This document shows, in pieces, positions 15,385 to 50,521 of a DNA stretch of 64,000 nt. The notes beneath the pieces were generated by a model. That model saw nothing but the letters and a program-made list of their open reading frames with translations. It did no database searches and was not told where the DNA came from. Source of the DNA: [Phialemoniopsis] sp. UDSM-2020. Taxonomy: Eukaryota; Ascomycota; Sordariomycetes; Thyridiales; Thyridiaceae. Position 1 is the first letter of the stretch; the number at the start of each line of letters is the position of its first letter. Position numbers and translations under genes: made by a program. Location: assembly GCA_018873225.1 (NCBI GenBank), contig JAEILZ010000001.1:5952001-6016000 (forward strand), written 5' to 3'.

Positions 15385-17086
15385 ATGATGCGTGTGCCCG
15401 ACGCAATAGACGAAGCTCCTCCCCAGTACTCTGATATTCCTGTAGAGATGGATGCCTCTGACAACAGCACACCTGCTCCCGACCAAACCCCAGCCGAAAA
15501 GCCGCTCAACGTCTTGATTCTCGGAGAGACAGCCAATGGAAAAAGCACCTTGATCCGTCAATTGGGTGTCTATGCCGGTAACAGAACCCCTGAGGTGAAG
15601 ATCGGCTATGGTTAGTATCGCCGAGTATCGACGACCTGAGCTTCTCTTTACTGACCATGGAGCAGGCAACGTTTCTTGCACCAAGGAGGTTGGGAGATAC
15701 CCACTTTCAACACCACTCCGCGGATTCTTTCTCCAGGACCACAGTGGCCATGAGGTGAAGAACGTCAAGTATTCCGACCTTGTCGACTTTACCGAAGACG
15801 ACGCCACTGTGGTCGCACACAAGCCAGAGGAGAACGGCAAGCGTTTCAACTTCGAGCTCATCGATACGCCGGGCCTCGATGATTCCGATGGCAACGATAT
15901 GGAGATCATGACGGAGATCATCGCCAAGGTCAGCGAGCTTTCTCATCTGAATGCTGTCATCTACGTTCGGTCCATGAACAAGCCGTTCGGAACCTCGTTT
16001 GTGCGCTTCTACGACTACATTGCCCGATGTATGCCCATGGTCAGCAACGGTCTCATCGTCGTACATTCTGGCTACACCATTGATCGTGTCGACGAGGCCC
16101 TGTCTCGGAAGCGCGACCTGGCAGCCGAGCGTGAGAAGGCCTTCCAAAAGGCGACCAAGGGCAAGATGAGTCTGGCGCACTTCTTCATGGACAATAACCC
16201 GGACGATACCAACCCGTTCGCCATAATGGAATCTCTGAACGGCTGCTTCAAGCTTCTGAAGCTGTTGTCCACACAGTTGCCGCTTGACATTTCCAATCTC
16301 AAACTACTCAAGGCGCCCAACATGATCAACGTAGACACCCACGTCATCCTTGCGCTCGAGCGCCTTGGGGCACGCCTCAAGAAGAAGCTCGACGATGAGC
16401 TAGCAGCGGCCAACAAGTCCAAGAATGCCATCCTGCGCACTAAGCGCGAGATCGCCCGGCTGAAGAGCAAGCAGGAAGAGTACACCGAGGAGCTCAACCG
16501 CCTTGACCGCAGCACAGAGATCATCCTTGGCACCAAGACTGTGGCCGAAGACTACGGCATGAAAGAGCTCCTGTTCGATGGTGCTCTGTGGCTCGACAAG
16601 CGCGACGTCAACTTTGACAGCGACTGCCCCATCACCGACGTCCGCAAGACGGTCGGCAGCGGGTGCAAGTGGCTCAACGAGGACCGGCGCGGCACGACGT
16701 GGCGTGCTACCCTGAAGTCGGGCATCTTCCGCAGCATGGAGGGCACGGCGACGTTCTACACCACGACTCAGCTCAAGCACAGGGGCGAAATCGAGGCGCT
16801 TAGGGCGCGGCTCAGAGATGACAAAGGCACCATCGAGTTCCACGACACGACACTGGCCAGCCTCGGGTCACTCGACGAGCACGACACGGGAACAGTGAAG
16901 CTCGGTGAGGATGTTGACCGTTGCGCGGCGACGGTGGAGAGGATTCAGCGCGACACGTTTGAGGCGAATTTGTGGCCGCTACTTCGTCAATTCTACGTCG
17001 GACATAAGAAGCCGTCCAACTCTGATGTGGTGGAGTTTGTAGAGGTGTATGACCCAAAGACGGCCGAGTTGCTGTATAATATTTGA
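15385..17086 (+). CDS. P-loop GTPase with coiled coil and beta-rich C-terminal module
   Basis: Exons are 15385-15610 and 15666-17086 (intron 55 bp), giving 548 aa. A disordered, acidic N-terminus of about 40 residues precedes the G domain: G1 GETANGKS (47-54) and G3 DTPGLDDS (about 132-139). The expected G4 NKxD/TKxD is replaced: after the strand LIVVH comes SGYTID, so nucleotide specificity may be altered. A long heptad region (about 300-365) follows, then the beta-type segment with several Trp residues (about 385-440), then a second helical region. The domain order matches its two GTPase neighbours, so they are diverged paralogues. It is transcribed divergently from the gene at 12291-14561. 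Cellular role unknown. Confidence 0.85.
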
Positions 17087-17236
17087 TCGAAGATGTCTCG
17101 TAGTTACTCAGGGCGTTTCAATTCACTCTGGTCTCTGATGCGATGCTTGTATGGCTAAACAACGTGTCTCTACTTGATTTTCATTATGGCTAAAAATGAC
17201 TTCTTTAAAGATTGGCTCAACAACTGGAGTCTAGGA

Positions 17237-18919: not shown

Positions 18920-19616
18920 CGTGATCGACTAGGCCGGTTGATGATTTGTATCTGGTCTAAGTGAATCACAACAATGCTGGGCATCTGCTTGCCGAAAGCT
19001 TCATATCAGCGCAGAAGTGCAATACACACTCCTCGAGATCCTTCGTTACATGCTTCATTCCTCGGACCCGAATTCATGGGCCTCTCCAAGATGGTGTTTC
19101 AGCTCTGCAAGCCACTATATTTCTTGCACAGGTAGTCAACCCCGAGTCGAGGCCAGCTGCCCAGTGCTCTGAAGGCCAGGAATTGGATGGCGACCATGGA
19201 TTACAAAAGATCTTTGGGTCTAGACTCGGCAGTGCTGAAATCCCCTTGGAAGGCTACCCGTCTTGGCATAGTGCCCCAGAGCTGAGTTGTTATCACATCA
19301 CTAGTCTCATGCACCCCGAAGCCACGCGAATCACATGGTGTCGGTACTTCACTTACTTGTAGCATCCATCTCGCTAACCCAACCCCAATTTGATCAAGCT
19401 TTATCCAAGGGTCCTAGCTGAGGCGATCATCCAACATTCCGGTCGCTCCCTTTGTCGACTCAGGAACCTCAGTGGGTAGCATATTCTGCTGTCGTTGATT
19501 TCTTGACAATCCCGCATAGATCTGGTCTGTCGAATGGTGCATTCGAGCAGCGTTCCCCCTTCTTCATTGTGACGTGAATAAGCGATCGACTTTTGGAACA
19601 TCGCTGCATCATTGCC
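18920..19616. promoter_or_regulatory. Divergent promoter between GTPase and GTPase-less genes
   Basis: About 700 bp. It contains GTCGGTACTT (19340-19349) and TAACCCAACCCC (19375-19386), the same two words as in the 14.6-15.4 kb promoter but in the opposite order. I looked for a remnant G domain upstream of 19617 in all frames and saw none. Confidence 0.45.
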
Positions 19617-31366: not shown

Positions 31367-34245
31367 TTACTTGTGATCGGCTTTGATGATATCATCCAGA
31401 CGTGCTCGCAAACGGAAGCTTTGAAGAGTCAAAAATATAGATGACCCTGACATGAGCAGAGCGGCAAGGGATCTGTGTCACTCGCGGTCAGGTACAGTGA
31501 ACAAGGTCGAGAAAGGTGGGTTCAGATAGGGACAAGGAGTGCTTGTACTCACGGCGACATTGAAATGGGCATGGGATTATATAGATCCGCGGCCAGGCTG
31601 ATTGCAACCACGTTGTAGACCAGAATCCAGTAGACGTTGAATCTCACTTGATCCATGGTCAATTTGGCCATTTCGTACAGGTCGAGCAATGATTGAAGGT
31701 TCGAATTCACGATGATAACGGCTCCGCCGGCAGCACTAAGGGCCGAATCTGTTTGAAGGCCGACCCCAACACCCGCCACCGCGAGTGACGGAGCATCGTT
31801 GAGGCCGTCTCCCACCTTGTCTTTAGGTTAGCACGTGGGAATCGAAGCACCGAGACCACTAGAGAGCATACCATTGTCACGACTTGGCCCGACTGTTGCA
31901 AAGCCTCGATGCATTCTTTCTTGTCTTCGGGTAATGCTTGGGCTTTGATGATTGGCAGGTTCAGTTGTCGAGAGACGCGTGAAGCAGCGCCGTGGGTATC
32001 CCCGGTGAGCTTCGCACATGCTAATATCAGTAATCATTCGGACAGTGAACACTCTCAAGGTTATTATCCATACCATCCCGCACGAGTAACCTTCCGAGAC
32101 CAGGGCGTCGACGACAGTTGAGGCTTCGTCTCTTACCAGATCCTATGAAAATTAGTCAGGCCTCCGCAGCTCTGGAGCAGGAAGATCTTTCTTACGCTTA
32201 TGAGCATCGATCCAGCATATTTCCCGTCAAATCCAATGTGGACGACAATCGTTCCGGTGGTGTGGGCTGCAAGACGTTCGGGAACACCCTCCACTCCACC
32301 CTCTTCAAGGTAACGCGTGCTCCCTAAGATGACCTGACGCCATGGTTGCGTCGGAATCTGCACGTCACCTGTGATACCCTTGCCAGCATCGCAAACGATA
32401 TTCCGATGGGTCAGGGAAGGCTGCTTCTTTAACCAAGCGGCACCTCCCACGCGCCTCAGTCCTGCGCTGAAAATAGCACGGGCGATGGGATGTTGATTAA
32501 GTACTTGACCTTCTAGAATGCAAGCATATTCCCACAGTAAACTTTGGCTATTTTCCCAACTAGGTGAGACGAGCAAGCCTTCCACGTCGAGCTTGGCATG
32601 CGTAAGGGTTCCCGTTTTGTCAAAGACCACTGTGCGAGACCTCTGGAGCTTTGAAATTGTGCTGATGCCGCCAGTGATGATAATCCCTTGTCGACTGGCA
32701 TATACTGCGGAGAATGGTGACTGTGAGTTCATGATTTCAATTGTCTATCGAATGTTCAAGGAGAGATATAAGCAACATACCGACAGCAGCGACCACGGCC
32801 GAAGGAATGGCCAATCCGACGGCGCATGGGCACGCGCTTGTGAGGATGGTGATTACTCGCGTGACATACTCGTGGAATAACTCATATCGTGGCATCTCAT
32901 CGGCGTGCGGATAGAGCTTGTAGATGGGTGCAGTGATGGCGATGAATATGACGACTGATACGAAATAGTTCGTAACAACATCGAGCAGCTTGTATTCTCC
33001 GGAGCTGTTGGCGTTCGAATCCGTCGCGCACTGCACGAGCTTCGTATGGAACGAGTCGCTTTGTTCTCTCTGCACCGCACAGATCAAGGGTTCGCTCAGA
33101 TTGCGTGTCCCTCCGAGGAGAAGATCTCCTGTTGCCTTCCTGACCGGTAATGATTCCCCTGATATGATGGCTTCTCCGATGAGTGAGGAGCCTTCAAGAA
33201 CACAAGAGTCGCATGGGATGAGCGAGTGCGGCTGGACCACGATCTTGCCACCCGCTCTGAGGTATGAGCTTGGTACTACCTGTCATCAGCTTAATAGTCT
33301 GATCATCTTCCACTTTTTGAAATATCACATCAAGAATGGACATACCTCTAAGCTGGGCCACAGAGTGGCTAACTCCGTCTCCAAGACAGGTTCATAGATA
33401 CGAACAAGCTCGCTCGATGCTGATCGTCGTGACAGCACGTCAATATACCTGCCTCCCACGACAACAAGCCCCAGTCCAACCACAGTGGTGTAAAACGAAC
33501 TAGATGCGACGGAACCCTTTACAACCCAGTCCATGAAGGGGAGAAGAGAGCCCAGGATCATCGCCAAAGACGTCAACGAGTTCATGTTGGGATGGGCACC
33601 TCGTAAAGATCTCCAGCCGTCCTCGTGTATCCATCTAACTGGGAAGAGCTGGACATACCATACGATTGCCAGGGACGACAGGTGTATTCCGGACCTAGCG
33701 CCCCGGGCCAAGGAAGACTCGTGGGAGGTGAAATATAGCAGCAAAGCTAGTCCTTGGAGGAGCGCCGTATGTCGTCCGAGGTGGGAGAACGTGGAAGCCA
33801 GTTGCTCCACGGCTTCCCCGTGCTGGAGAATCTCGATGATCTGCCGCGGCGATCGAGGCCCCAGTTCAGCCTCGTATCCGAGGTCGCGAATGCTTGCGAG
33901 CACTTGATTCACATCCAAGCTTTGATTCGGAAGAGCAATAACAGTAGCTTGCTGGATGGTCAACGACACGCGGACCTTGTCCACTGTCGGAAGTGCCGAC
34001 ACTGCATATTCTACGGCGCTGGTGCAGGCGCCGCAAGTCAGACCGCCGAGTGAAACAATGAGCGACGATGACTGGGCATGGCTGTTTCCAGTGCCACCGG
34101 CTCGAAGCTGATGAGATCTGGTGGATCCAGCACTCCAGGAATGTTGCTTGTCTTCATTGTATCTTATGCCGTCACCAATGTCTAGAAACTGACACGCTTT
34201 GACGAGTTGGCCGATACAGAACGCGGCGATGTAGCAGCAAGCCAT
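31367..34245 (-). CDS. Copper-type P1B ATPase with one N-terminal HMA domain
   Basis: Seven exons on the minus strand: 34245-33346, 33279-32781, 32704-32196, 32142-32074, 32009-31872, 31815-31553 and 31472-31367, giving 827 aa. One heavy-metal domain carries GLTCGACTSA. Core motifs are SGES, the transport-site CPC (SACPCAVGL), DKTGT phosphorylation site, QHPIARA (HP motif), MLTGD and VGDGLNDAP. The tail contains the YN of helix 7 and MSGSS of helix 8, as in Cu+ pumps. Several family motifs span introns and appear only after splicing. The last exon, carrying helix 8, is easily missed. The first ATG is 34245; codons upstream stay open until a TGA, and a small upstream exon cannot be excluded. 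Function: copper (or silver) export or delivery. Confidence 0.88.
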
Positions 34246-34865
34246 GGTAAGGGAAACTTCTGGTCGTGCCAATGCGTACGAGGGGTCAAAGATTCAGAAA
34301 ATATAGCAGACTGTCACTCTAGTCAGTTATCCAGAGGACATCTCAGCTCTGAGTGATACTCACGTTGGAGGAACAACCGTTCAGCACAAGTTGGACCGGA
34401 TCGGGAAGCCTATGGCGGAGATCGTGTGGGGCTGGGTATGAGCGCTCCGAGGCGGACCGCGACAGGCCTAACCAAAAGTGGATGATCCGTCTTAAGGAGG
34501 AGACGGTTGAACACTCCGAATATTACCAGTTTCAGGAGGATCTTCAACTAGCCATAGATCGTTCGACGGTAATTCGACTCCAAGATAAGGTAATTGAGAA
34601 GCTGAGTACAATGATTTGGTGTGTTGGACCTTTGAGAACATTGCCAAGTTATCAGGACCTTGATCATTAGCTTTGAACCGGTGATGGCTTTTACAGGCAA
34701 CGGTGGCGGTCCGAACAGACCCACACCACAACCCGGGGAGACACTCTATCACGGGCGGCTATAAGGGAGCCGCCCTTGGCCAATGGGATGCCAAATTGGG
34801 GATCAGCCGATGCATCCCTTTCTCGTGTGTAAGCTACTCCAACTGATTTCACAAAGTCTGCAAAA
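34246..34865. promoter_or_regulatory. Divergent promoter with two CGG(A/T)CCG sites
   Basis: The region lies between the copper ATPase (minus) and the acyl-CoA synthetase (plus). CGGACCG occurs at 34453-34459 and CGGTCCG at 34707-34713. The heptamer is an inverted CGG pair with a 1-nt spacer, the kind of site bound by Zn2Cys6 dimers, and recurs between the genes up to 47.2 kb. Confidence 0.55.
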
Positions 34866-36831
34866 ATGGCTAGTTTTCAAAGCCCCCAACAGCCTCTCGA
34901 CGCTCCAGCCATCGTTGCGGGCCCGACAACACCAAGCCTGTGGCGAAAGACACTGGGAACGCTCATTGCGGAACAGGCAGATCGCTTTGGGTCAGCAGAT
35001 GCAGTGGTTGTTCCATGGCAGGCCAGGCGTCTCTCGTACCGGCATGTTGCCGACCGGAGCATGCAGGTCGCAAGACGTCTCCTGGCCCTGGGACTGAGAC
35101 ATGGCGATTCGGTCGGAGTCATGGCTGGCAATCGTGTTGAGTACGTCGAGGTCTTCATGGGCGCTGGGAGAATCGGCTGCCACGCGGTAGTGCTCAATAA
35201 CACGTACTCTCCAAGCGAGCTCTGTCAGGCGGTACTTCGAGCGGGTAAGTGTTGACCCTCGCCGTAGTTGATCTGGCGAAGCTAAGCGAAGAGCAGATTG
35301 CAAGGTCCTCTTCATGGCAACAAAGATCGGACCAAAGTCACTTGGCGCACACATCTCGAAAGTACTCGAACTATCTCGGACACAAACGAATCTGCAACAT
35401 ATCTTCTGCTTTGGCAAATACTCGCCTGCGGGTTTTGGAGCTCAAACGTATAACGAGTTTCATCACGGCTCGATGGCTGATATAGATCAGGTGAAGCAAG
35501 CCGAAAGCCGTGTTGTGGCATCTGATATCTTGAATCTCCAGTTTACCTCCGGTATGTCTTTTCCCCTCAATGGGAGTGAGTGAGTGACCAGAAGCTAAAT
35601 AGTGTTGCTCAGGAACCACTGGAGTACCCAAAGCGGTTTGCCTAACACACTCGTGAGTATACAAGCCGCGAAGCCTGGTACAGAACCGAGAACTGACGCT
35701 ATAAAGAAACGTGCTTAACGATGCTAGATTCGTTGGACGTGCGATGCGCTTGACAACGGCTGACATCGTGTGTTGCCCTCCGCCGCTGTTCCACTGTTTT
35801 GGCTTGGTTATGGGCCTTCTTGCCAGCTTCTGCTATGGGAGTACTATCATCTTTCCATCCGATAACTTCGATGCCGATTTGACAGTGCAGGCTGTCGTCA
35901 GAGAGCACGCAACCGCGCTCCTGGGCGTACCGACAATGTTTATAGCTGCGATGGAAGTAGTCAAACGGAAGGGTTACCAGCTGACGAGCGTCCGCACTGG
36001 TCTTGCAGCGGGAGCCATGGTGACTCCGGCCTTAATGAACGGTATTCGAGAAAAACTTAATATCGAAGGGATGCTCATTGCGTACGGAATGACCGAGACT
36101 AGCCCCGTCACGTTCATTACCTCCCTTGACGATAGCCCGGAGAAGCGGTATACGAGCATTGGGCGAGTTCTACCCCATACCATGGCCATGGTTGTGGACA
36201 GCCAGTGTTCAGCCCTCCCCTTTGGACAAAAAGGGGAGATCTGCACTGCAGGATTTGCACTTCAGAAGGGATATTGGAAGGACGAGGAACGGACTAAACA
36301 AGTCATGAGATACGATGAGAATGGAGTCAGGTGGATGCACACAGGCGACGAAGGGTTCATCAGCGCCGACGGATACGGCCACGTTACTGGTAGGATCAAA
36401 GATCTCATCATTAGAGGTAATGCGTTCCCGATGATTCTCTTGGTCTCAATAAACACTGCTAACTCAAGGATGGTCTAGGTGGGGAGAATATTTCCCCCAG
36501 CGAGATCGAGGATCGGCTGCTGGAACATCCAGACATCGGCGAGAGCTGCGTGGTGGGTCTTGAGGATCCAAGATATGGAGAAGCGGTTGCCTGCTTCCTT
36601 GGCCAGTCACAGGGTTCGAGCGAGAGACCGTCCCACGATGACGTGCGCAGCTGGGTGTCGCAGAAGCTGGGTCGTATAAAGGAGCCTCATCATATCTTCT
36701 GGGTCGGCGACCCGGGCGTTGGCCATGAGATACCAAAAACTGGCAGCGGCAAGTATCAGAAGCATTTGGTACGGAAAATCGGAAATGGGTTACTCAAGCT
36801 GATAGAAAGACATCCAACGCCCAAGCTTTGA
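34866..36831 (+). CDS. AMP-forming acyl-CoA synthetase / CoA ligase
   Basis: Exons are 34866-35244, 35297-35551, 35613-35652, 35707-36416 and 36479-36831, giving 578 aa. The adenylate-forming P-loop TSGTTGVPKA is assembled across introns 2 and 3. Further motifs are YGMTET, HTGDEG, the hinge GRIKDLIIRGGENISP (split by intron 4) and the catalytic-lysine region KTGSGKYQK. All are intact, so an active ANL-superfamily acyl-CoA synthetase is expected. The C-terminus ends PKL, a weak non-canonical peroxisomal signal. It is the first gene of a six-gene catabolic-type cluster and carries two CGG(A/T)CCG sites upstream. The substrate is inferred to be a medium or branched carboxylate (geranate in the monoterpene hypothesis). 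Confidence 0.88.
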
Positions 36832-37653
36832 GATGCCACGAGATCTGGGTGTGGACGGGTATCACAGACTAGATGCGGTTAGATCGAAGAGAAGCTGTTA
36901 CTTGTCATTCTCTTGGCTCGGTGCTACAACACATCTATCACGGTTATTGAATCCCGTCTTACACCCGTCTTTGTCCAGTTAGCCCCCCGGAGGAATCCTC
37001 ACAGTGTAAAGACTTAGGGCGCTTTGTTGATACCCCACACAGTATCAAAGTGTGGTCATTGAGCGGGGTCCGCGAGAAAGACGGCTCGAGGATCTTGTCC
37101 CAATATGAATAAGGGGGGAAGTTCTTTCAAAGCATACGATTCAGACAACATCCTGACTTTTACAATTCATCGATATGCCGGGTAGAATGGGTCGTAGTAC
37201 TAGATATGAAAACATCAAATAACAATCTCAGATGTGTAGATCGGGGTTGCAAAGTTAATGGTCTCTGACCAGAGGATAGACTCAGTGTAGGATATGCGAT
37301 GAAACCTAGGATCGACCCCATGGGGTTGTCGATGGGGCAGCACCCACACATCAGCTCATTCGCACGACTCCCGTATGCCAACGAGCCAAGCACTGCTTAG
37401 CGTAATTAGTAGCAGGGTGGGTGCCATGGTGCAAGGTCGATTTCCCCGCCTTCGAATTCTCACGAGCTGCTCGGGGGCTCTTTGCGCTTTGCTCTCTCTG
37501 CAAACCCCTCTTGTCCCCGGTGTCGTCACTCTTCTCGCTCCCGAACCCCCAAGTTCCAATCCAGTCCCCGACCGTGAAGACGACACAAAACTGTTGAAAG
37601 CCTGCAGCGGTGCAGTCGAATTGCGCTCTATGTAAGGACGGGGTCTGTCGACA
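36832..37653. promoter_or_regulatory. Promoter region of cluster regulator
   Basis: 822 bp without a supported ORF. A related half-site pair, CGGGGTCCG (CGG-N3-CCG), lies at 37064-37072. Otherwise nothing distinctive. Confidence 0.4.
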
Positions 37654-40291
37654 ATGACGGTCCCTGGCCCTCCGAATGAGATGCTTTCGTGGCACTCCCC
37701 TCCAGATCAGTCGGCCCCGTGGTTTGGAGCGAATGAGCGCAATCCGACCATGACTGGCGCCATCCGACGGATCCGTCAAGCATGCAGACACTGCCGGTAC
37801 GTCTTACGGAACGAGCTCTGTGGTCTTTCACTCCCGTCTTGTCTGGCGCATGGCTGGACTGTCGGTACTGGGTTGAAAAGCCGCAGAGCTTGACACATTA
37901 AGCGCCGAGGTCTTGGATGGATTGCTGACATTGTCTCTTCTCTAGTCATCGCAAGACTAAATGTTCCGGCGAAAAGCCAAGGTGTAAGAACTGTCAGAAG
38001 GCTGGTCGAAGTTGTCACTACGAGCCCTTTCACCGGACCCAGCCATCGAGAGGCTCAACTGAGACGCGGGCATCTACATCCCTTGCTATGGACTCCTTGG
38101 GTCCAGAACTACAAAATGTATGATCCGGCCTAGCCGCTGTATTTGGTACTTGAGCCGTTCCACTGACCCCCTAGGATAGCCTGCTTTGCTCAAGAGAATC
38201 AAACACATCGAGAGCCAGCTGGACTGGTTGAAGCAGTTGACGGTGCCTGACGACCAGGACACGAATGATACAAGGTTCGGCACGAACTCATATTCGCTTC
38301 ACTGGATCATGTAAAGCTAATACGTCTGCCAGAAATGCTGCCATGGATCAGGGTACCAGTCCTGTCTCCGTGTCTAGCTCCGACTTCCCCATCCTACAGA
38401 CGCAAGGATTGCAACACGCATCTTCTACCTCCCCAACTCAACGACGACTATCACAGACGATTACGCATAGGTCGGACTCCTTTGATGTACCGTGAGTTAC
38501 AGCAGGCCCAGTACCCATGCGTGTTGACGTGCACGACACTCAGAGATGAGACAATTGACGAGTATGTGTAGACGTTTTTCAACACTTCCTCCACATCCGG
38601 TCATGCAATCATTGGTCGATACATACTTTCAGCATGCCCACAACCAACCGTACTCGTACTTTCAGGAACAAAGCTTTCGAGAAGGCCTAGCACTGGGCCA
38701 CCTGCCCAAGTGCTTAGTATATGCAGTTCTCGCGTCGGCACTCAGATTCTCCAAAGATGCGTATTTCAACGGCGCGAAGGAACAGGCCATAGAAGCCTAT
38801 GCCAGGGAGGCTTGGCTGTCAGTGCTGAATGATCATATGACGTTAGAGAACTGTCCCAATCTACATGTCGCCCAGACAACCAACATACTGGCAATTATAG
38901 ACTTTACAGGTGAGCCACAAGACTGGAGTCAACGAGTATCTTATTGTGGGAGTACCAGCTGACTCGACCGGCCGCCAAAGCTGGGCGGACTAGTTCGGGA
39001 TGGCTGAAGATCGGCCTGGCTGTGCGGATAGGCCAGGACCTGCAACTGATGAAAGAGCCTTCTCCTACATACCCCGTCATCGAGCAAGAACAGCGCAGGC
39101 GGGTGTTCTGGTCAATATACCTTCTAGACAAGCTGGTCTCCTGCGGCCGGAGCCGCCCGCCCGGGATTCATGACGAAGATTGTCAGGTCCAGCTGCCCTG
39201 TGACGAAGACATGTTTCGCAAGGGCGAGTTTCAACGAACAGCCACGCTGCACCAGATCTCAAATTGGGCCACAGAGTCGGATCATATCGGCGGCAACTTT
39301 GCTTTGACGATACTTGCAGCGTCTGCTCTCGGGAGATGTGCACGCTACACTCTGCACCAGTGTGAGATGGACGAGATGGCCCCTTGGGACGCAAGGTCCG
39401 AGTACGCCTCCATCAACAATTATCTCAACCTTGTCAACCACCATTTGTGCGTCGAGACCACGCCAATTCAGAGGATCATGGAAAAGTGTACAGGACCAGA
39501 CGGCTTGCCTAACTGGAGGGATGCGGCGCACTTGATATTCTCTCACGCGATATATCATCTCTCCTACTGTCTCCTCAACCACCCCTTTCTACTAAGGCTT
39601 CGACTCCAGAAGCTCAAGGCTCGCACTCCTGTCATCTTCTTAGAACGCTCAATACAGGCGAGCTGTGAGCATGCAAGCATGATGATTGACCTCCTGAGCA
39701 AGGCCTCAGAAGCCGGTTTCCCCGTTCAGGCGTCGTTCTACGCGTACGCAACAACGCTCGCCGGTAGCATCATCACTATGGCAATCAAAAATGCAAAAGC
39801 ACCAACTACCGCTTCTGTTACGACGCTTCAAGAAAATGCCCAACAGGCACTGTCTATACTAGAACGAATGGGCCATGTTTGGGAGCATGCCTCCAAGATG
39901 GTGAGTCAATTTCGCTGTTGGACATCCCTACTTTCATGATACTGATGCCTGGTCCCATAACGTAAAGCACCAACAATTGATTCTATTTGGCGCCAGTGAG
40001 GTTGCATCTACAGTTATTCTAGATGCCAACACGTCAGCGGACACAAGCCCGGAACTCGAGGAGATGATGTGGCCAATAGTTGACTATGGCCTCATGTGTA
40101 GTCGGTCCCAAGTATCTGATGAAAGTGCCTTAAGACCACAACAGCCAATGTTTGAAGATACGTCTTGGCTTTCGGCCCTGGATTTCAGTACCGGCCTCGA
40201 CCCGACTACCGAACTCGCAGATTGTGGTCTGGATATTGGTGATGCTATGGGACAAGATTTCCTCGCGTACAACATAGAATGTTCGATTTGA
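37654..40291 (+). CDS. Zn2Cys6 transcription factor within the catabolic cluster
   Basis: Seven exons: 37654-37796, 37946-38117, 38180-38274, 38333-38491, 38572-38909, 38981-39900 and 39968-40291, giving 716 aa. The zinc cluster is split by intron 1 and reads C-x2-C-x6-C-x6-C-x2-C-x6-C (ACRHC ... KTKC ... RCKNC ... SC). A short linker and heptads (ALLKRIKHIESQLDWLKQL) follow, then the fungal-specific TF domain (LPPHPVMQSLVDTYF; RRRVFWSIYLLDKL). The acceptor of intron 4 is the least certain (38572, or 38551 or 38563, all in phase). It sits inside the LDI/ADH/ALDH/CoA-ligase cluster, so it is the natural candidate to bind the CGG(A/T)CCG sites. Targets are inferred, not shown. Confidence 0.85.
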
Positions 40292-40859
40292 AACTGGGAT
40301 TGTAATGTAATTATTCCTGTCATCGGCTTCCAACAGGCTGTTTAATGACAACACTTGATTAACACAGTATCGAGATGTCCAATCAGACATTCGGCGGTGG
40401 ATGCTTGAAGTGCCTTGCCAACGCCTTGCCGGGAGGGTACATGTGTCCCACCTCCTCTAAGAGAGCCGACCGCGCGGACCGTCCCTTGCCAGTCCGACTT
40501 AACCCGGACCGGAGAGCGGCACGGTTGGTTGGCCCAACAGATGTTTACCCGCTCGGACAGCGGGGACAAGTTTCCAAAAGGTCTAATGCAACTTGAGTAA
40601 AAGTCCTGCCAACCGAATTCGCCTGGCTCTTTCTGTAGCTTGAGTGCACTATGATCAAGCGTTGCGATGATCTTTGATGCATAGTTCAAGACGGTCCGGA
40701 TCGACTCATTCCATGAGGCGGAAGGCAGAGACTGCAAACATTAAACCCGAGTTCTTCCCATCTCATTACGAATCTGTTAATATCAAACACTAGCTGGCGA
40801 GATTTAAATTAGATATCTTCAAATCTGCTACCATTACTCAAAGCATCACTCTTTCCACC
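40292..40859. promoter_or_regulatory. Transporter promoter with three CGG(A/T)CCG sites
   Basis: CGGACCG occurs at 40475-40481 and 40505-40511, and CGGTCCG at 40692-40698, within 400 bp of the transporter ATG. The region also has a longer inverted pair TCCG-N8-CGGA around 40493-40508. No ORF. Confidence 0.6.
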
Positions 40860-41974
40860 ATGTCTGCTCCACACGCCGAGATCAAAGCCAATGGCAAAAC
40901 TGCTCTCGACCTTGAAACCGCAGAGGACAATGGCCTCCGAGCCCTCCGCTCCGCCCAAAGCGTGACTTTAAGTCCCGAGCTATTCGAAAAGCTCTATCTC
41001 TCACCACCTAACAAAGCTGGTGGGAACCTTCGGCGCACGTTCGGCAATCCGACACCAATGTAAATAAAGGCTATCTCAGTGTCATGATTTCTCGGAGGCC
41101 ACTTACTAATAGATTACAGCGCCATCGTGGGGTTTCTACTTTCACTGATGCCCTTATCATGCGACTTGATGGGCTGGCGAGGAGCCGGTGATTTTGGCGT
41201 TGCGACCATGTACGTACTGATCTACAGCCCCAAGGTCGGGTGATCTAACACGGCTTCATTAAACAGAGCGGTGTACTTCTTCATGGGTGGTCTCTTGATG
41301 TTCCTAAGCGGCCTTCTCGAATGGGTAGTTGGCAACAGCTTCCCTGCAACAGTCTTCACCAGTTTCGGCGGTTTCTGGCTGGCTTTTGGGGGTACCCTGA
41401 ATCCAAGCTTCGGCGCGTATAGCTTCTATGCCACGGACCCTGATACACCAAAAACAGGCATGGCCGCCGCCAAGTTCAATGCCAGCTTGGGTAAGCCTCT
41501 TTGACTTGTTGAGCGGAATGCAGATTCTCGCCCCCACGTTCTTTTCTTCGGAAAGCTCACACCCATGTCATCTCAGGTTTTTGGCTACTGTGTATGGGCC
41601 TTCTCGCATTCGTGTACCTCATCTGTGCTTTGCGCACAAACATCGTCTTTGTCATCATCTTCATGAGTCTACTACCGGCGTTCGGCATGCTCACTGCCGC
41701 ATTCTGGGCGATGGCGGCCGACTATGAAGGGAGCTCAGCCAAAGTAAACAAGTTATTCGTGGTAAGGTTTTCTTCTACGTTGTTCCGTTTTGGATTTTCG
41801 ACTCTATTCCATGCTAACACGGTTCAAAAGGGGGCCGGGGCGTCACTCTTCGTGACGTGTTTCGCGGGCTGGTATATCCTCGTTGCCATCATGTTTGAGA
41901 TTGTTGACTTTCCATTTCAGATTCCTGTGGGAGACTTGTCTACCGTGATCAAGGGAAGAAGTCAAAGAAAGTAG
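40860..41974 (+). CDS. GPR1/FUN34/YaaH-family carboxylate (acetate) transporter
   Basis: Exons are 40860-41059, 41120-41209, 41267-41490, 41577-41761 and 41831-41974, giving 280 aa. The family signature NPxPxxxxGF is created across intron 1 (FGNPTP then IAIVGF). Six membrane helices are visible, including the conserved FGGFWLAFG. The N-terminal 80 residues are cytosolic. Known fungal members (Ady2/Ato1, AcpA) move acetate and related short carboxylates with protons; some are linked to ammonium export. The place in the cluster and three upstream CGG(A/T)CCG sites suggest uptake or release of a pathway carboxylate. Substrate specificity is not visible in the sequence. Confidence 0.92.
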
Positions 41975-42728
41975 GGGAGCACGTCAAAGGAATGCTAGCG
42001 GTGTAAAAAGCTTACAGACGATGACCAGGATTTGCGTAAAAGAATAGGAGAGATAACGGTTGAAAATTGATAAATGGTAGTGAGAAACCGATTAGATCGA
42101 TTCTGAATGTGGAAAACTGTGCTCGACTTATTGACGCAACTGTGACCTGACTAGTCTTGATGCCCATTTCTAAAGTGTATGAACATCGTCAAAGTCCTGT
42201 CATCCACACAATCCTTCCAACCCTTGCAACTTAGACTACCACATTCTGCCTGCGGGCAGTCTTCCCCTCACCAGCGTGTTGCATATCGAAATCTCGAACT
42301 ACGCGATGGAGTCTTAGCACGAGACCTAGAGGTGGAATATGCCGGCCTACGTCATTCTGGGCTGTTGTTTAGGGGTGATCCATCCTCTCCTGAGACCTAC
42401 TGAATCAGCCGGTCCGTCGCTAAACGGTCCAGGCCTACGAACCGTGTAGTCCGCTACGCTAGGCAGGTACACAGTATGGAAACCTCTCCGTCACCACTGA
42501 GCCCCGCTGCGCCGAGCGCTAGGCCTAATATGCAATTCAAACATCTCGGGGTCAGCGGCAACATGCGGACCGCAGTGAACGGCTAGGCTAGCAGATTGGT
42601 GTTGAGGATTCGATTTAATGACCTTGAAAGCCTGAAACTCTGAGACATGAGCGGCAACAAAGCAGCCCTTTACTTTCTTAGCCACTGTTAACGACATCAT
42701 CTCAACACACCATCAGTTCGAGTACATC
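41975..42728. promoter_or_regulatory. Aldehyde dehydrogenase promoter with CGGTCCG site
   Basis: CGGTCCG lies at 42410-42416, with a near copy ACGGTCCA about 15 bp downstream. No convincing ORF in the remaining 750 bp. Confidence 0.5.
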
Positions 42729-44599
42729 ATGGCCCCATCTGCAGTCACAGTCGTGGCAGATCAGCTGAAGACAAAGGGCCCAAGTCTGAATTTTGACGAT
42801 GACTTTGTGCAAATCATCGACGGAAAAGCAAGTCCCACCAAAGAAGCGAGGCACGGCATAAATCCAGCGAACTTGGAACCGAAAGCAAATGTGCCACTTG
42901 CAACAAAGCAGGACCTTGACGATGCTGTCGCGAGTGCGAGGGATGCTTTCAAGTCTTGGTCCCAAGTGCCGTATGAGGAGCGGCGCCGTGCCGTTCTGGC
43001 TTATGCGGATGCCGTCGACCAGCATAGGAAGGAGTTCCAGAGTCTTCTCACCTCAGAACAGGGGAAGCCGGCAAGTAAACCCTTTCCATCTAATCTGCTC
43101 GAGGGCTGTCTCGCTAATTGGACATCACCAGATCCCACAAGCGGCTTATGAGACGGACGCGGCCATCGAGTGGATGCGTGGAATGGCCAACATAGAACTC
43201 CCAGAAGATGTGATCGAGGATAACGAAAAACATACCGTGATCACTCGATATGTCCCAATCGGTGTCGTCGGTGCTATAGTCCCGTGGAACTTTCCATTGC
43301 TTCTTGCGACTGGCAAGATTGCTCCTGCGCTACTGACTGGGAACGTCATCATCGTCAAGCCATCGTTAGTAACCAGTTGTCTACTTCCAACAGTTCCAAT
43401 AGTATATGGATTCCGAGGGAAAGCTGCTAACAAGCTTTGTTTAGGCCGTTCACGCCATACTGTGGACTCAAGCTCGTAGAGCTTGCACAGCGTTTCTTCC
43501 CGCCCGGCGTTGTTCAGTCTTTGAGTGGTGATGACAATCTTGGGCCGTGGCTGACCAGTCACCCTGGGATTGACAAGATCAGTTTCACCGGCTCAACCAA
43601 TACCGGAAAGCTCGTCCTTCAAAGTGCAAGCAAAACCCTCAAGCGTGTGACCCTAGAGCTGTAAGTGATGCCAGTCAACCGCCCCCTCGTCATCGGCGTG
43701 TCACTGACGAAAGGTCTTCAAGTGGCGGAAACGATCCGGCTATTATTCTCCCTGATATCGATATCGATAAGGTTTCCCAGCAGGTAAGCCTTAATTATTA
43801 GGAGAGGCGACGTGGCTTACGGAAAGAGAGAACTGACATAAGCTGGCAGGTCGCATTCTATGCATTCTTGAACTCTGGCCAGGTGGGTTTCCCCGTCATC
43901 AAATATCGCACTATTGAGATACTGACACGTTTAATAGATCTGTTTGAACCTCAAGCGCATCTACATCCACAAGTCCATATATGAAGAGTTCAGGGACGCC
44001 GTTGTCAAACATGTTAGGTCCTATGTGGTGGGCGATGGATCTAAGGACGGCACGAGCCACGGCCCACTGCAGAATAGCATGCAGTATGAGCGTGTCAAGA
44101 CATTCTTTGACGACATTGAGAAGCAGGGCTGGAAGGTGGCAACCGGTGGCAAGATTGAGCCATCTTCAGGGTATTTCGTGACACCCACCGTTATCGACAG
44201 GCCCGCGGAAGACTCAAGAATTGTGGTCGAGGAGCCTTTTGGTAAGTATTGACCAGTGGGACCTTGCCGAGGAGTTCTAGGAGATGCTAATGCGGTGGCA
44301 TAGGCCCAATCGTCCCCCTTCTGTCCTGGGAAACAGAAGAGGAGGTCATCGCACGAGCCAACAACACAACCATGGGTCTTGGTGCTTCTGTTTGGAGCAA
44401 CGATATCAAGAGAGCGACGAGGATCGGCAAATCCATACAGGCAGGAAACGTATGGATCAATACGCACTTCGATCTTTCGCCCATGGCCCCGTTCGGCGGG
44501 CACAAGCAAAGCGGCATCGGCACGGAATGGGGATCTAACGGTCTCAAGGGATTTTGTAACGTGCAGACCATATTCTGCAACAAACAGATTGTTCAGTAG
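42729..44599 (+). CDS. NAD(P)-dependent aldehyde dehydrogenase with a GC-AG first intron
   Basis: Seven exons: 42729-43070, 43132-43364, 43445-43660, 43723-43783, 43850-43882, 43938-44241 and 44304-44599, giving 494 aa. Key motifs are [17 protein letters not shown] (cofactor loop), LELGGNDP (general-base Glu, across intron 3), GQICLN (catalytic Cys at the exon 5/6 junction) and EEPFGPIVP (across intron 6). Intron 1 starts GCAAGT. Using it gives EQGKPIPQAAYE with family spacing, whereas a GT four bases on (43075) would delete two residues. The enzyme oxidises an aldehyde to the acid. In the cluster it would act after the alcohol dehydrogenase and before the CoA synthetase. Confidence 0.93.
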
Positions 44600-45241
44600 C
44601 CGTGTAGAGCCGGGCAGATGCCAGCAGCTATCCGTTGTTCCCGATAACAGTACCCGCACATTCAATTTTGGCTTTCAAATTGGACCTTTCAGTAATACTG
44701 CCGATAACCTAAAACAAAGATGCTATCGTGAACATTTTTTACTACTGGATGTTACTAAATCAAGTGACCTGCACCCAGAGGAAAGGGACTCGACGTGCTT
44801 GACACCATTCTGGTCACAATGTACAAGGGCTGCACAGAGCCAAACCCCTCCCTCGTTCTCGTCTCCAGATAGCCGGGGCAGCTTGTTACTTGCACATTGC
44901 ACAGGGACACATGCCTGTCAGATCTCATGTCCAGGATGCCACCATCCATCCCCACTGGCGGCGCTTGTCCTCGACACGCGCAACATGCTAGACAGTTCTC
45001 CGCATTCCTGAACCCGGTCCGCCTCTCGGACCGCGCCGTGCGACACTGACAGCGACACTGTGCTTCCTTCATCATGAGGAGCATCTCATATCTTGACTTT
45101 GGTTTGCGGGGTAACCCAGTCTTAGCTGCACTTCATGGTCTGACAACAACATCAATGTAATCAATCTATTCGCTATCAGCCCAAAGCAACCCCTCATGAC
45201 CCCATCACCAAGAAGTCTGTCGTCCCGCTCGCAGCAAATCG
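44600..45241. promoter_or_regulatory. Convergent spacer with a 7-bp inverted repeat of the cluster heptamer
   Basis: Between the ALDH and ADH stop codons lies a perfect inverted repeat, CGGTCCGCCTCTCGGACCG (45015-45033), with arms of 7 bp and a 5-nt spacer. It is the only paired copy of the heptamer. A regulator site in a convergent 3' region is unexpected. No ORF of note. Confidence 0.55.
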
Positions 45242-46767
45242 TCACCAAACGAGGACTGGCTTGATCGTGGTGCCGCTCTCCATGTCTTCGATCGCTTGCT
45301 GGTACTCCTCCACCTGTTCCACGTCAATTTCACTATTTGTATATCCAATGATTGAGAGGACATAATGATAGCAACTCACCGGATAGAATTTCACCAGCTT
45401 TTCCACGGGGAAGCGCCCCGATTGATACCATCGAATCATTTTGGGTATGTACTGCGCACGCGGATTCAGCTGTACTAGCTCGTAGACGATAGATTACCCA
45501 TATCTTACCTCTTCAGGGTAGACACCGCCTTCCATGCTGCCAAGAAGCATTTTGCCCGTCTACTTGAGATTAGATTCATGTCTACTCAGAATAGCCCCTC
45601 CCCATTGCTCTTGACAGCACTTACCACCATGTAGGGGACGATCTGGATCTGCAATCCGGCGTCCATCGGTGCAACACCGAGCAAGATCATCTTGCCTTGG
45701 TGGGCAGTAAACTCAATCCCTTGCTGGATCAGGGGAACGACACCAGTCGCATCGATGGTGATTGTAGAACCAACACCGTTTGTGATTTTGCGTACCTCGT
45801 CAGTCAAGGAACCGCTCATACTGCTCGTGTCTATGCCGTGAGTGGCGCCAAGGGACTTTGCCAATTTGATGCGACTTGGTACACGATCGATTCCGATGAT
45901 CTGCTTGCAGCCCTGGAGTTTTGCACCCTAAGCAGAATCCAAGCATCAGCACGGCATACAACAGGTATAAGTCACAGAGATGAAAGTACCATGATGGCCG
46001 CGAGTCCGACTCCTCCAAGACCTAGGATCGCAACAGTATCATCAGGCTTTGCACTTGCCAACTCCGTGACAGTACCGGCCCCAGTCTGTAAGTACACCTT
46101 GTTAGCTGCACAACCCACCTAACCGACCACTCCTGTATCGCTACCACGAACCTGGATACCACACCCTAACGGCGCAAGGAGTTTAAGATCCTCCGGGGTC
46201 TTCACCAAGTGATTGACCTTGACCATGGAAGTCTCTTGAACTTTGGTCAACCTCGAGAAGCTTGACTGGCCGAAAAAGGAACCACCGATGCCTTGACTAT
46301 GATCCTTCGGGACAGAAAATGCTGTCTTATCGCCAGTAAAGTTGAGCTCTGAGAACTTGGAACAATACCCAGGAGCACCAAACTGGCAATTGTGGCACTG
46401 TGTGCAGAATGCAAAGGACAAGAGAACGAAGTCTCCGGGTCCAACTTTGCTGACTTTAGAGCCCACTTCCCTGACGATACCGGCACCTGTTCAAAGTTGA
46501 GTATTATTTTTCTAGGGGAGTAAGACTCTGACACTTACCCTCGTGCCCAAGAACACGGGGATATGGTGGTACCGGAAAACCGGGCGTCCCATCTGGAGCG
46601 GTTCCGCATCCCAGGTCCGTATGGCAGATACCAGAGGCGACGATCTCTACGGTGGCTTCGAACTCAGCAGGCTTGCCAATCTTGATGTCTTCGAGAAGCC
46701 ATTGTCTTTTGCCGTCCACTGGGTGGTGCGATACGATGGCCTGGGTAGAATGAAGCTTTGTCGCCAT
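45242..46767 (-). CDS. Zinc-dependent alcohol dehydrogenase (aryl/allylic alcohol DH type, MDR family)
   Basis: Seven exons on the minus strand: 46767-46539, 46486-46152, 46085-45990, 45927-45625, 45559-45509, 45451-45380 and 45313-45242, giving 385 aa. Catalytic zinc ligands are in SGICHTD and GHEGAG (across intron 1). The structural-zinc cysteines are CTQCHNCQFGAPGYC. The NAD loop is GLGGVGLAA, and the acidic residue GID after it favours NAD. The layout (PYPRVLGHEG, FYPVEEYQQAI) resembles benzyl/aryl alcohol and geraniol dehydrogenases. The last acceptor (45313) was chosen because the nearer one gives an immediate stop. It is transcribed divergently from the LDI-domain gene, with three CGG(A/T)CCG sites between them. 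Confidence 0.92.
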
Positions 46768-47320
46768 GGTGTCTGTAATTACTTGCTGTGCGGGATAAGA
46801 AAGTAGACAACCGAGAAGATTGGGAAAGAAAATTCATGAACTGACATTAGTCTATGTGTTACGCACAACCCTCCTTAGATGCTCGAGCTGGGTGGCACCC
46901 CGGCTTCTTTACCATGTCTTGACGGACCGCTGATAATCAAAGTACCTAGGTAGCTACTACAATCATCCCATCACCTCCCGCTCGGTCCGGTCGCCTTTGG
47001 GACCGCCGCTAGTACTGTGATGTGGTTCTAAGTCTCCGTGTCGGACCACTTCAACAAGGACTAGACAATCGTTTCCCTGTTCAGTTCCCCGCCTCCCCGC
47101 CCCCAAGGTCCTCCCACCAAACGAATGCGGAGATACCTGCAAAGTCAATGGGGCGCGGAGGCGGTCCGCACTGGCTTTTTGGTATTGCCCCGGAGGATAT
47201 TTGCACACGCTTCGATAAACCATCTATAACTATATCTTTCGATGTTACGTCCCTCCAATCTTTTTCCAAATAGTGTCATACTTCATTACATGTCATTGAA
47301 CACGGAGACTTATATTGATC
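46768..47320. promoter_or_regulatory. Divergent ADH/LDI promoter with three CGG(A/T)CCG sites
   Basis: CGGACCG at 46923-46929, CGGTCCG at 46983-46989 and CGGTCCG at 47162-47168 lie in the 553 bp between the two start codons. This is the densest divergent promoter of the putative regulon. Confidence 0.6.
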
Positions 47321-49709
47321 ATGTCTTTGACCGTGAGTGAATCTTTCCGGTTGCTCTCCCTTATTATATGCTAATGTTCTTAAACAGCTCACAAAAGCCC
47401 TTCCGGCTACGAATGGCGTTGTCGACGACCAGCCTCTGGCTCTTGCAATGGTCAATGGAAAAGCCGATGCCCACAGCGCGGATGTCGGTGAAGTACTAGG
47501 GACCACCAAGTATCAGAATGAAGCTGTCGGAGACTTCGGCTGGGGCCCGTGGATGATCAAAGACGTCTTGATCCCTCCTAGCGCCGGGCGTGGCCTCATC
47601 AAGAAGTACCATCAGCGCCGTACTCTGTACCAGTACCTGGCCCTTTCCCTTGGGGGACTCTGGACTTTCTACAACGTACAAAGCACTTCCCACCGCGCTG
47701 CTGCTCTCGGCCTGCTCTTTCCCGGAGCTGGATTTACTGCAGTGGCAACCTTCCCGGCTCTTCTGGGCTTTGTCGTCACCGTAGCTCTGCTCCCGGTAAC
47801 AATCTTTGCCTGGTTCGGCATGGGTGGTATTTTCTTCCCTCTTGCCTTGTGGTTTGGCAGCGCAATCTTATCTGGTTTCATGGCTGGCGACAAATTGTTC
47901 GATTGGAGCGCTATTTTCTGGGCCGCCTTTTGCTATGGTGGTGTCATGTGGTTGATGAGCAACGCTCGATCACTAAATGCTGCCGGCTACTCCAAGGCCC
48001 AAGAGAGGAACAAGTACCTCGTCAAAGCCGTGGAACAGCAAATGGAGAATGCCAAGCCCGCGCCGCCTCCTGGATCTCGCGAGCTGTCGTTGGAGACGCT
48101 GCGCCATGTCCAGCACGTCCTTGAGCGTGGTCTCAGCGCCCGTGACGACTTCAGCTACCACGACGTCATTGATCAGTTCCAGACCGGCGCCGTGCGCTAT
48201 CAGCTCTACGGAGTAGTAGACGTACTGAGTCTATACCAGTGTCACTACGCTCCTGGATTCCATGGCTACCTCTCGAAGGCTTCCCAGAATTGCATCGAGA
48301 AAAGTCTGCAGAAGAGCATCATGTCGTGAGCACTCCTTCCCCATACCCTCGCTAAGAGCATATTTCTGACAAGAATTCCAAGTTACTGGAAGTGGGAGTC
48401 GATCTTTGGCAGGTTCACTTTGAGCGACTGGAATCCAATCAAGAAGGATAACATTGTGAGTGATTGTGCCTGCAACAAATACAGTCTTCATTCTCTGACA
48501 GTCTTCAACAGATGGTAACTGGATACTTGAGTTCGGCCATCGGTCTCTACGCTCAGGCTTCAGGTGACAAACAATATGCTGCAAAGGACGCCCTGGAGTT
48601 CGTCATTGATGATGGAAAGCACTACAAGACCAACTATGAGGGACTCGCAGATGCTCTATACGAGAATATGACCGATAATCCCTACTGCCTGTATCCATGC
48701 GAGCCGAATTGGACATACTCTCTCTGCAAGTAAGTCGGACTGCGTTTGAGCAAAATGCTCCGAACTGAATTGACCTGACTGACGCTCTTAACAAAAAGTC
48801 TAACTGGCATGGCTGGTCTCGTCATCTCGGACAGGATCCTCGGACGCGACCTTGGCCAGAAGCTTCGGAACCGCTTCGAGAGATCGCTCGAGGAGGAGTT
48901 CACTGAGTGCGATGGGCGCATCCTGCCAATTCGCAGTGAATTTACTGGCCTTACTGTAAGCCAGACCACGTCACTGAAACCTAGCTTGCCGATCCTAACA
49001 AGATGTTGCTCCTCAGCTCCCCGGACTCTGCGGCACGCTGACCGACTGCATCAACGCCATGCTTCTGACCGCCTATCTTCCCCATCTCGCGCACCGCAAC
49101 TGGGCCATCATCCGCAAGGAGTTCATCACCTACGACAAGAACGGCCAGCTCGGCGTCAAGGGGCTCAAGGGCGCCGACAAGATGGACCCCGGCAACTACC
49201 GAGGCGGCGAGGGGTGTCTTCGGGCTTTTCTGGCCGCGACGGCCGCCGAGTTTGGTGACGAGAAGATTCGCCAGGAGGCCCTGGACCAGCTGGACCACGT
49301 GTACTTCCCCGTCGAGACCACCAAGTCGGGCGCGCACTACAACAAGGGACTGTCGACCACCTCGCAGAACATCGCCCTCATGGCCCGGCTCGTCAAGCAC
49401 CGCGACCTGGCCAACGCCACTCTGCACGGTCCGAGCCAACAAGCCCTGACGGGGCCTCTGCTGGAGGAAGCTCCGTTCCCAGAGGTACTGGTTGCCAAGG
49501 CCTACAGCCACGACGGGAAGAATCTGGACTTGGTGCTCTACAATGGAAACGAGCCTGGAACCTTTGAGCTCGGTTTTGAACGACTTATCCCTAATCAGCG
49601 CTACTCACTAAGCACTGGCGAATACCTCACCGCGGACAGAGCTGGTAAGGCGGCCTACAGGGCCAAGATTAATGGCCGCACCCAAATCGTTCTCTCTCCC
49701 GAAGTTTGA
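47321..49709 (+). CDS. Membrane protein with linalool dehydratase/isomerase (LDI)-like catalytic domain
   Basis: Exons are 47321-47332, 47388-48325, 48383-48455, 48512-48729, 48799-48955 and 49017-49709, giving 696 aa. The first exon is 12 bp (MSLT); an upstream ATG at 47290 is out of phase. Residues about 85-205 contain several hydrophobic segments (membrane anchor), followed by an (alpha/alpha)-barrel-type domain. The block YCLYPCEPNWTYSLCN (C-x3-CEP-x6-CN, split by intron 4) matches the cysteine-rich active-site loop of bacterial linalool dehydratase/isomerase. RYQLYGV and the YWKW segment also fit that fold. Bacterial LDI interconverts myrcene, linalool and geraniol. The substrate here is inferred from the neighbouring ADH, ALDH and CoA-ligase genes. 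Confidence 0.85.
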
Positions 49710-50016
49710 ACTGCTATTCACTCCTTTTCTGTTTATTGTTATCGGATCTCATATTGCATGGATACATTCCGCTATCAAATTGAGGAGGTGATGACACTTT
49801 TGGTGATGACACTTTAGAAACTTGATCATAGAACAGGACTATCTATCCCTATGCTTCTTACAAGCTTGAATAAACTGATTGGCATTGATCTTTATTTTTC
49901 TATTATCTACAAGCTTATTGCGAAAAGGGACATCTCACTATTCCAACCCATGATATTGGCAGGTAGCAGAAGGGACAAGGGGGTAAATTTGTCACACTAG
50001 GTACGACTAGCACAAA
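49710..50016. other. 3' flank with a 15-bp tandem duplication
   Basis: A direct tandem pair GGTGATGACACTTT(T/A) lies at 49787-49801 and 49802-49816. The remainder is AT-rich 3' flank of the LDI-domain gene. Confidence 0.6.
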
Positions 50017-50210
50017 CTATTCTCGACTCAACATCGAAAGCGTCATCTTTCCAGTCATGCTTTTTTAGATCCAATAAATCTCTCCCAGGCCACGAAGGCC
50101 GTAGTGATCACCACCCCACCGACGAGCAGGCCGATCACCTTGGGTGCTTTCCATGGCTCGCTCTGCCCGCGTACTGCATGGCGACAATGCTAGGCCCCTG
50201 TGCTAGAACT
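50017..50210 (-). pseudogene. Decayed MFS transporter fragment (DHA-type, middle of protein)
   Basis: On the minus strand, three adjoining reading frames encode consecutive pieces of a drug:H+ antiporter-type MFS protein. IVAMQYAG is followed after a shift by QSEPWKAPKVIGLLVGG and VVITTAFVAWERF, then after a stop or shift by MTLSMLSRE. The middle of 14-TMS MFS pumps reads LALQYGGQ..PW..P.VIGLLVG..V...F..WE in this order. Only about 55 codons remain, with no start, no flanking helices and at least two frame breaks. It is therefore a relic, perhaps of a transporter that once belonged to the neighbouring cluster. Confidence 0.65.
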
Positions 50211-50521
50211 GTCCCTACTACTTGTGATGACCCGACCGGCGAATTCCTTATCTTCAAGGGTTGTCTCCACTACACCACACTAACCGAGATCTAGCGTGGA
50301 GGTCAAGGTGTGGCTCGGATGACGTGCAATCGGATGCTGTGTTCGGATGATGAGCACTCGGATGCTGTGCACTCGGACGCCGTGCACACGCGCCTCGTTG
50401 ATTCATGCAGCAGGCAGAATAGTTTCAATCGTTGCGATCGAGGAGACAGGAACAATGACCTTGGCAACCGTCCCGTTCTGGAACAAGCCTTGATGTTTGT
50501 GAACAGTAGCTAGATAGATTC
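50211..50521. repeat. Five imperfect 13-15 bp tandem units in an intergenic stretch
   Basis: Units starting TCGGA(T/C)G and ending near GTGCAC run at 50315-50329, 50330-50342, 50343-50357, 50358-50372 and 50373-50387. The rest of the interval shows nothing else. Confidence 0.6.

Follow-up and report, generated by a model that had tools for sequence, protein, structure and literature searches.

A probably co-regulated fungal gene cluster containing an LDI-domain gene, with a possible role in the breakdown of linalool-type alcohols

A stretch of 64,000 nucleotides from the ascomycete [Phialemoniopsis] sp. UDSM-2020 (GenBank assembly GCA_018873225.1, contig JAEILZ010000001.1, positions 5,952,001 to 6,016,000 of the forward strand; hereafter the window, whose first letter is position 1) contains, at 34866-49709, a cluster of six intron-containing genes. 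These encode an acyl-CoA synthetase (ACS), a Zn2Cys6 regulator (TF1), a GPR1/FUN34-type transporter, an aldehyde dehydrogenase (ALDH), an alcohol dehydrogenase (ADH), and a protein with an LDI domain, the domain of the bacterial enzyme that acts on linalool. All but the regulator gene are preceded, at a nearly constant distance, by a common palindrome, CGGWCCG, and the sequence makes a strong case that this is a co-regulated catabolic cluster that includes the LDI gene. That the five genes constitute a regulon for the conversion of linalool, or a similar tertiary terpene alcohol, to geranyl-CoA has, in our estimate, an even chance of being correct.

The evidence for co-regulation lies mainly in the intergenic DNA. 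CGGWCCG occurs 20 times in the window, and 13 of these sites fall within the 16-kb stretch that holds the cluster (34294-50300). Intergenic DNA makes up only 28% of the stretch yet holds 12 of the 13 sites (P 2e-6); the remaining one (49427) falls within the final exon of LDI. The 12 sites are contained in 12.7 kb, for which the genome density (4481 sites in 44.18 Mb) predicts 1.29 (P 1.4e-8); as a genome-wide control, the reversed pattern was found 9945 times versus 4481 times for CGGWCCG. (It should be noted that the palindrome was first picked by eye in intergenic DNA; hence an unselected count of 7-mers was made, in which the intergenic DNA of the cluster was compared with the rest of the window.) In this count CGGWCCG is the top-ranked 7-mer (P 3.9e-11, or about 3e-7 when corrected for 8192 7-mers), and among 78 gapped motifs with CGG/CCG and TCC/GGA half sites, CGG-N1-CCG is the sole strong one.

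The positions of the sites are as distinctive as their number. The distance from a site to the predicted ATG is 159 bp for ACS, 168 bp for the transporter, 163 bp for ALDH, 162 bp for ADH, and 159 bp for LDI, which covers all five of the non-regulator genes; when the same number of sites is placed at random (200,000 trials), agreement of this kind, 159-168 bp before every one of the five ATGs, has a P of 3.5e-5. A CGG-type site common to every structural-gene promoter, here five of five, is the arrangement expected of a fungal pathway-specific Zn2Cys6 regulon. The shared, position-fixed palindrome likely marks the five genes as a regulon, and TF1, the candidate cluster regulator, would be the protein that binds it. 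No CGGWCCG is present just downstream of LDI, and the set thus appears to be bounded at the LDI end. Genome-wide, pairs of sites no more than 30 bp apart are found at 18 places, 2 of them in the cluster; in a look for a wider regulon, the open reading frames (ORFs) at 4 of the 16 other places were read by eye, and none looked terpene-related. The promoter site would provide a handle for finding the remaining members of the regulon.

The gene models were spliced by hand from positions 34300-50400 (Table 1). Reading through the spliced models of the four enzymes and the transporter is free of stops, and the Pfam matches are far above cut-off (Ldi, E 6e-80; AMP-binding, 6e-79; Gpr1_Fun34_YaaH, 5e-33; Aldedh, 2e-146, obtained with an earlier 497-residue ALDH model that differs in one splice site); the ADH protein is matched by ADH_N and ADH_zinc_N. 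The spliced frame of TF1 carries the canonical six-cysteine motif C-x2-C-x6-C-x6-C-x2-C-x6-C and a Fungal_trans match (6e-18). Its fifth modelled exon meets a stop, one exon boundary being wrong, and the stop-to-stop frame at 38528-38962 is open; the gene is not read as broken. The spliced models and Pfam matches confirm a first-pass annotation of this DNA, which had placed an LDI-like protein, an ADH, an ALDH, an ACS, a carboxylate transporter, and a Zn2Cys6 regulator together here. In a pattern check against the motifs familiar for these enzyme families, the zinc ligands of ADH, the catalytic Cys and Glu of ALDH, and the P-loop and A10 lysine motifs of ACS all match. The nearest solved relative of the ADH is benzyl alcohol dehydrogenase, and the ACS is similar to CoA ligases for medium- and long-chain fatty acids (NCBIfam PRK12583 best and FadD types next, all below curated cut-offs). 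In the gap between the 3' ends of ALDH and ADH (45015-45033) no gene is evident, and an undetected transcript is possible there.

Table 1. Genes of the cluster and intergenic CGGWCCG sites, in window coordinates
Feature	Position	Strand	Remarks
Acyl-CoA synthetase (ACS)	34866..36831	+	5 exons, 578 aa; GeoC homologue, 27%
Zn2Cys6 transcription factor TF1, candidate cluster regulator	37654..40291	+	partial model; Fungal_trans
GPR1/FUN34/YaaH-type carboxylate transporter	40860..41974	+	5 exons, 280 aa
Aldehyde dehydrogenase (ALDH)	42729..44599	+	7 exons, 494 aa; GeoB homologue, 35%
Zinc alcohol dehydrogenase (ADH), benzyl/allylic type	45242..46767	-	7 exons, 385 aa; GeoA homologue, 35%
LDI-domain protein	47321..49709	+	6 exons, 696 aa; Ldi domain 274-576
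CGGWCCG	34453..34459		413 bp before ACS ATG
CGGWCCG	34707..34713		159 bp before ACS ATG
CGGWCCG	40475..40481		385 bp before transporter ATG
CGGWCCG	40505..40511		355 bp before transporter ATG
CGGWCCG	40692..40698		168 bp before transporter ATG
CGGWCCG	42410..42416		319 bp before ALDH ATG
CGGWCCG	42566..42572		163 bp before ALDH ATG
CGGWCCG	45015..45021		gap between convergent ALDH and ADH
CGGWCCG	45027..45033		same convergent gap, 5 bp from 45015..45021 site
CGGWCCG	46923..46929		divergent ADH/LDI promoter, 162 bp before ADH ATG
CGGWCCG	46983..46989		divergent ADH/LDI promoter
CGGWCCG	47162..47168		divergent ADH/LDI promoter, 159 bp before LDI ATG

The LDI domain of the cluster protein scores 269.5 bits against PF18566 (cut-off 26.1), compared with 202.1 for the enzyme of Castellaniella defragrans (PDB 5hlr, 5g1u) and 418.2 for a paralogue on contig C8 of this 11-contig genome (contigs are cited by such labels). 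In the bacterial enzyme, linalool dehydratase/isomerase (EC 4.2.1.127/5.4.4.4), Cys170 and Cys179 are catalytic, and a Cys48-Cys101 disulfide caps the cavity, as a passage in PMC6600392 describes. The loop C-x3-CEP-x6-CN, which the first-pass annotation had reported, is indeed present (Cys400, Cys404, and Cys413). When the protein is aligned to the Castellaniella enzyme, in the mature numbering of the latter, Cys170, Glu171, and Cys179 correspond to Cys404, Glu405, and Cys413, and Met124 and Tyr65 are likewise kept as Met342 and Tyr275. LDI-like chemistry on a tertiary allylic alcohol is the likely, though predicted, function of the domain. Unlike the bacterial enzyme, the fungal protein has a hydrophobic N-terminal half, whose hydrophobic segments at residues 108-170 (by hydropathy only) suggest that the protein is membrane-held through this half.

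The pathway proposed for these genes would begin with the substrate, in whose presence TF1 would bind CGGWCCG. Linalool would be isomerised to geraniol, or dehydrated and hydrated, through the two conserved cysteines of the LDI domain, which is probably membrane-held; ADH would then convert geraniol to geranial, ALDH geranial to geranic acid, and ACS geranic acid to geranyl-CoA. Breakdown to acetyl-CoA and acetate could be completed by one Atu-type locus together with the locus for 3-methylcrotonyl-CoA carboxylase (MCC) and isovaleryl-CoA dehydrogenase, and the GPR1-type protein may move acetate or the substrate acid.

Candidate loci for these onward steps are found elsewhere in the genome. 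Of its four carboxyltransferase loci, one encodes a probable acetyl-CoA carboxylase in a single frame of 2141 residues, one on contig C5 encodes an MCC, and the other two are on C1 and C7. The C5 protein scores 659 bits to solved MCC and 446 to geranyl-CoA carboxylase (GCC), and its gene adjoins that of an isovaleryl-CoA dehydrogenase, which scores 463 bits against solved enzymes of that kind. The C1 and C7 loci are of the Atu type, each with a carboxyltransferase of the MCC/GCC clade, a biotin carboxylase, and AtuA, to which C1 adds an ALDH and an acyl-CoA dehydrogenase and C7 an enoyl-CoA hydratase. The C1 carboxyltransferase groups with MCC-like enzymes: it matches MCC at 455 bits, entries named AccD1 and PCC (propionyl-CoA carboxylase) at 449 and 446, GCC at 410, and the next PCC types at no more than 209. 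One exon of the C7 enzyme behaves likewise, with 170 bits to MCC and 150 to GCC, and has 81 of 92 residues in common with C1. Such loci could process geranyl-CoA. They recall the Pseudomonas Atu/Liu pathway, as outlined in a review (PMC4097962), in that carboxyltransferase, biotin carboxylase, and AtuA stand together at both loci, with a hydratase at one and an acyl-CoA dehydrogenase at the other; they differ from it in lying away from the cluster, in having the shared site at a level not above chance, and in that their specificity for geranyl-CoA is putative. On its own, AtuA was discarded as an indicator of terpene use: genes of the family (PF07287) occur at about 19 places in the genome and in varied surroundings, several of them beside ADH, ALDH, or ACS. 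Two AtuA proteins are mentioned for Phacidium infestans (PMC12148953). A second catabolic-looking group, read by eye at C4:213001-231000, consists of adjacent genes for an ACS, a quinone-oxidoreductase-like protein, a Zn2Cys6 regulator, AtuA, an ADH, and an ALDH, and has no CGGWCCG.

In bacteria, LDI is known from Castellaniella and a similar isomerisation from Thauera (reviewed in part of PMC4097962). Using a Castellaniella LDI fragment taken from PDB alignments, the loci of C. defragrans DSM 12141 and of Denitromonas were retrieved. Each of the four fungal enzymes has a homologue in the DSM 12141 locus, whose gene order agrees with that of the 65Phen island as published, GeoC - one ORF - GeoA - four ORFs - LDI - ... 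- MarR - GeoB (in the account of Petasch et al. 2014, PMC4109377); the names GeoA, GeoB, and GeoC were assigned in DSM 12141 by gene order and homology, and an ORF beside its ALDH has weak, below-cut-off matches of the MarR type. The likeness to the ldi-geoA-geoB-geoC island consists in the grouping of an LDI protein with GeoA, GeoB, and GeoC homologues, to which the fungal enzymes are 35% (ADH), 35% (ALDH), and 27% (ACS) identical. In contrast to the island, the fungal cluster has introns, a Zn2Cys6 regulator, the common palindrome, and a GPR1-type transporter, and its LDI domain is fused to the membrane-like N-terminal half. Against GeoA, the spliced cluster ADH reaches 218.5 bits; the three best-ranked single frames from elsewhere in the genome, which cover GeoA in part and with 37-40% rather than 35% identity, reach 184, 180, and 171. 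An exon-by-exon search of the genome with GeoA ranked other places above the cluster ADH. A table of 2014 (PMC4109377) lists a Stereum hirsutum protein, 25% identical, as the closest LDI relative, so the occurrence of LDI-like proteins in fungi is in itself no novelty.

Several observations weigh against the assignment of the cluster to linalool breakdown under a common regulator. All ATGs from which the site distances are measured are predictions from the sequence. No CGGWCCG lies between ACS and TF1, so that TF1 itself is unmarked in its own promoter, and the sites at 45015 and 45027 precede no known gene. The C1 and C7 Atu-type loci have one CGGWCCG per 20 kb each, where about two are expected, and their membership in the cluster's regulon was rejected since this is no more than chance. 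Relatives of GeoB and GeoC that are closer than the cluster proteins are found elsewhere in the genome, at 334.6 and 320.8 bits versus 283.8 for the cluster ALDH and at 223.8 versus 139.0 for the cluster ACS. This makes it unlikely that the bacterial island arrived as one block by horizontal transfer; the fit to the island lies in composition. The statement of the first-pass annotation that the cluster has the same enzyme set as the bacteria is borne out at the level of families, and fails at the level of closest relatives for GeoB and GeoC.

The active site of the LDI protein is likewise altered. Asp38, Tyr44, and His128 are active-site residues of LDI. In the cluster protein His128 is replaced by Tyr346, Tyr44 aligns to Gln and looks replaced, and Asp38 aligns to Asp263 in two alignments, a tentative match in a weakly aligned region; at neither capping-disulfide position, Cys48 or Cys101, is there a Cys. 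The impression of the first-pass annotation that the enzyme motifs are all intact holds for ADH, ALDH, and ACS and for the catalytic cysteines of LDI, and does not hold for His128 and the capping disulfide. These differences from the Castellaniella enzyme leave room for another substrate. The same regulon and chemistry might then serve a C5 alcohol (2-methyl-3-buten-2-ol to prenol to 3-methylcrotonyl-CoA, and on to MCC) or a C15 alcohol (nerolidol to farnesol to farnesyl-CoA). Bacterial LDI accepts such C5 and C15 alcohols, the change of His128 to Tyr and the loss of the disulfide hint at a changed substrate, and the C5 route requires no GCC, the MCC/isovaleryl-CoA dehydrogenase locus being present; however, the resemblance of the ACS to medium/long-chain fatty acid CoA ligases (below curated cut-offs) argues against these substrates, and a GeoA-type ADH together with extra Atu-type carboxylases fits C10 better. 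We regard a C5 or C15 substrate as rather unlikely. That linalool is the natural substrate is judged about even, with these alcohols as its main rivals.

A broader departure would be an LDI protein with other chemistry on a non-terpene substrate, within a generic alcohol-to-acyl-CoA regulon for, e.g., aromatic or branched alcohols. Such a regulon is suggested by the relation of the ADH to benzyl alcohol dehydrogenase (which could also hold for the GeoA type), by groups of ADH, ALDH, and ACS elsewhere in the genome, e.g. at C4:215-228 kb, and by the active-site changes themselves. It is nevertheless improbable, given that the domain retains the CEP-x6-CN loop and its two catalytic cysteines and that the putative regulon comprises the LDI gene along with the oxidising enzymes.

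Finally, the LDI gene might lie beside the catabolic genes by chance, outside their pathway. The genome has three LDI loci, and the cluster is the only one with relatives of ADH, ALDH, and ACS within 16 kb. The other two genes (C8:430209-431897 and C4:2960301-2962125) keep the GH and CEP-x6-CN motifs and adjoin transporter-like ORFs; for both, that distance is free of ADH, ALDH, and ACS relatives, a point in favour of chance. The C8 paralogue is without the membrane-like half. Around these paralogues (LDI matches at C8:430434 and C4:2960715-2961921) CGGWCCG is at chance level, with one and three sites, respectively, in 30 kb each. In the cluster a common, position-fixed promoter site precedes LDI and the four other genes. 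In addition, the three enzyme families would all be found in a random 16-kb stretch with a probability of about 1e-5 if they are scattered independently, as estimated from at least 50 ADH, at least 68 ALDH, and at least 67 ACS merged places; the families are not fully independent, because one of the 19 AtuA loci also has ADH, ALDH, and ACS within 16 kb. Taken together, these points make a chance neighbourhood very improbable.

The reading of the cluster as one for monoterpene-alcohol catabolism, which the first-pass annotation had put forward, thus keeps its gene set and is joined by the common palindrome and by possible onward loci, while orthology throughout and a full LDI active site do not stand. 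Its fullest version is a eukaryotic linalool-isomerase regulon, in which a membrane-anchored LDI, switched through CGGWCCG and equipped with its own ADH, ALDH, CoA ligase, and acid transporter, would deliver geranyl-CoA to duplicated Atu-type loci that complete the route, the whole having arisen in fungi separately from the ldi-geo island of bacteria; this we advance tentatively, as somewhat short of an even chance.

Among the papers listed in searches of the open-licence literature there is none on a fungal LDI cluster, and those found describe the linalool-type route only in bacteria. According to a section of a 2014 review (PMC4097962), no fungus was long known to use monoterpenes as sole carbon source, Grosmannia clavigera being a recent exception, and a 30-gene terpene-responsive cluster is mentioned for this species (PMC3680317). 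The two are alike in being fungal clusters with a link to the use of monoterpenes; the brief mention in PMC3680317, as distinct from a gene list, names no LDI. A fungal set of LDI, ADH, ALDH, and ACS under common control would let the use of linalool-type alcohols by fungi be tested at the level of genes, and its LDI, with an altered active site and a putative membrane anchor, would be a new variant for biocatalysis.

Two further features of the window lie outside the cluster. Adjoining it on the minus strand, at 32136-34293, a heavy-metal P-type ATPase is represented by fragments in separate frames (HMA, E1-E2, and a weak HAD match), which may reflect either introns or decay. At 12294-18928, three adjacent ORFs have a common P-loop and LIDTPGLDDS-like motifs and may represent a local GTPase-like family.

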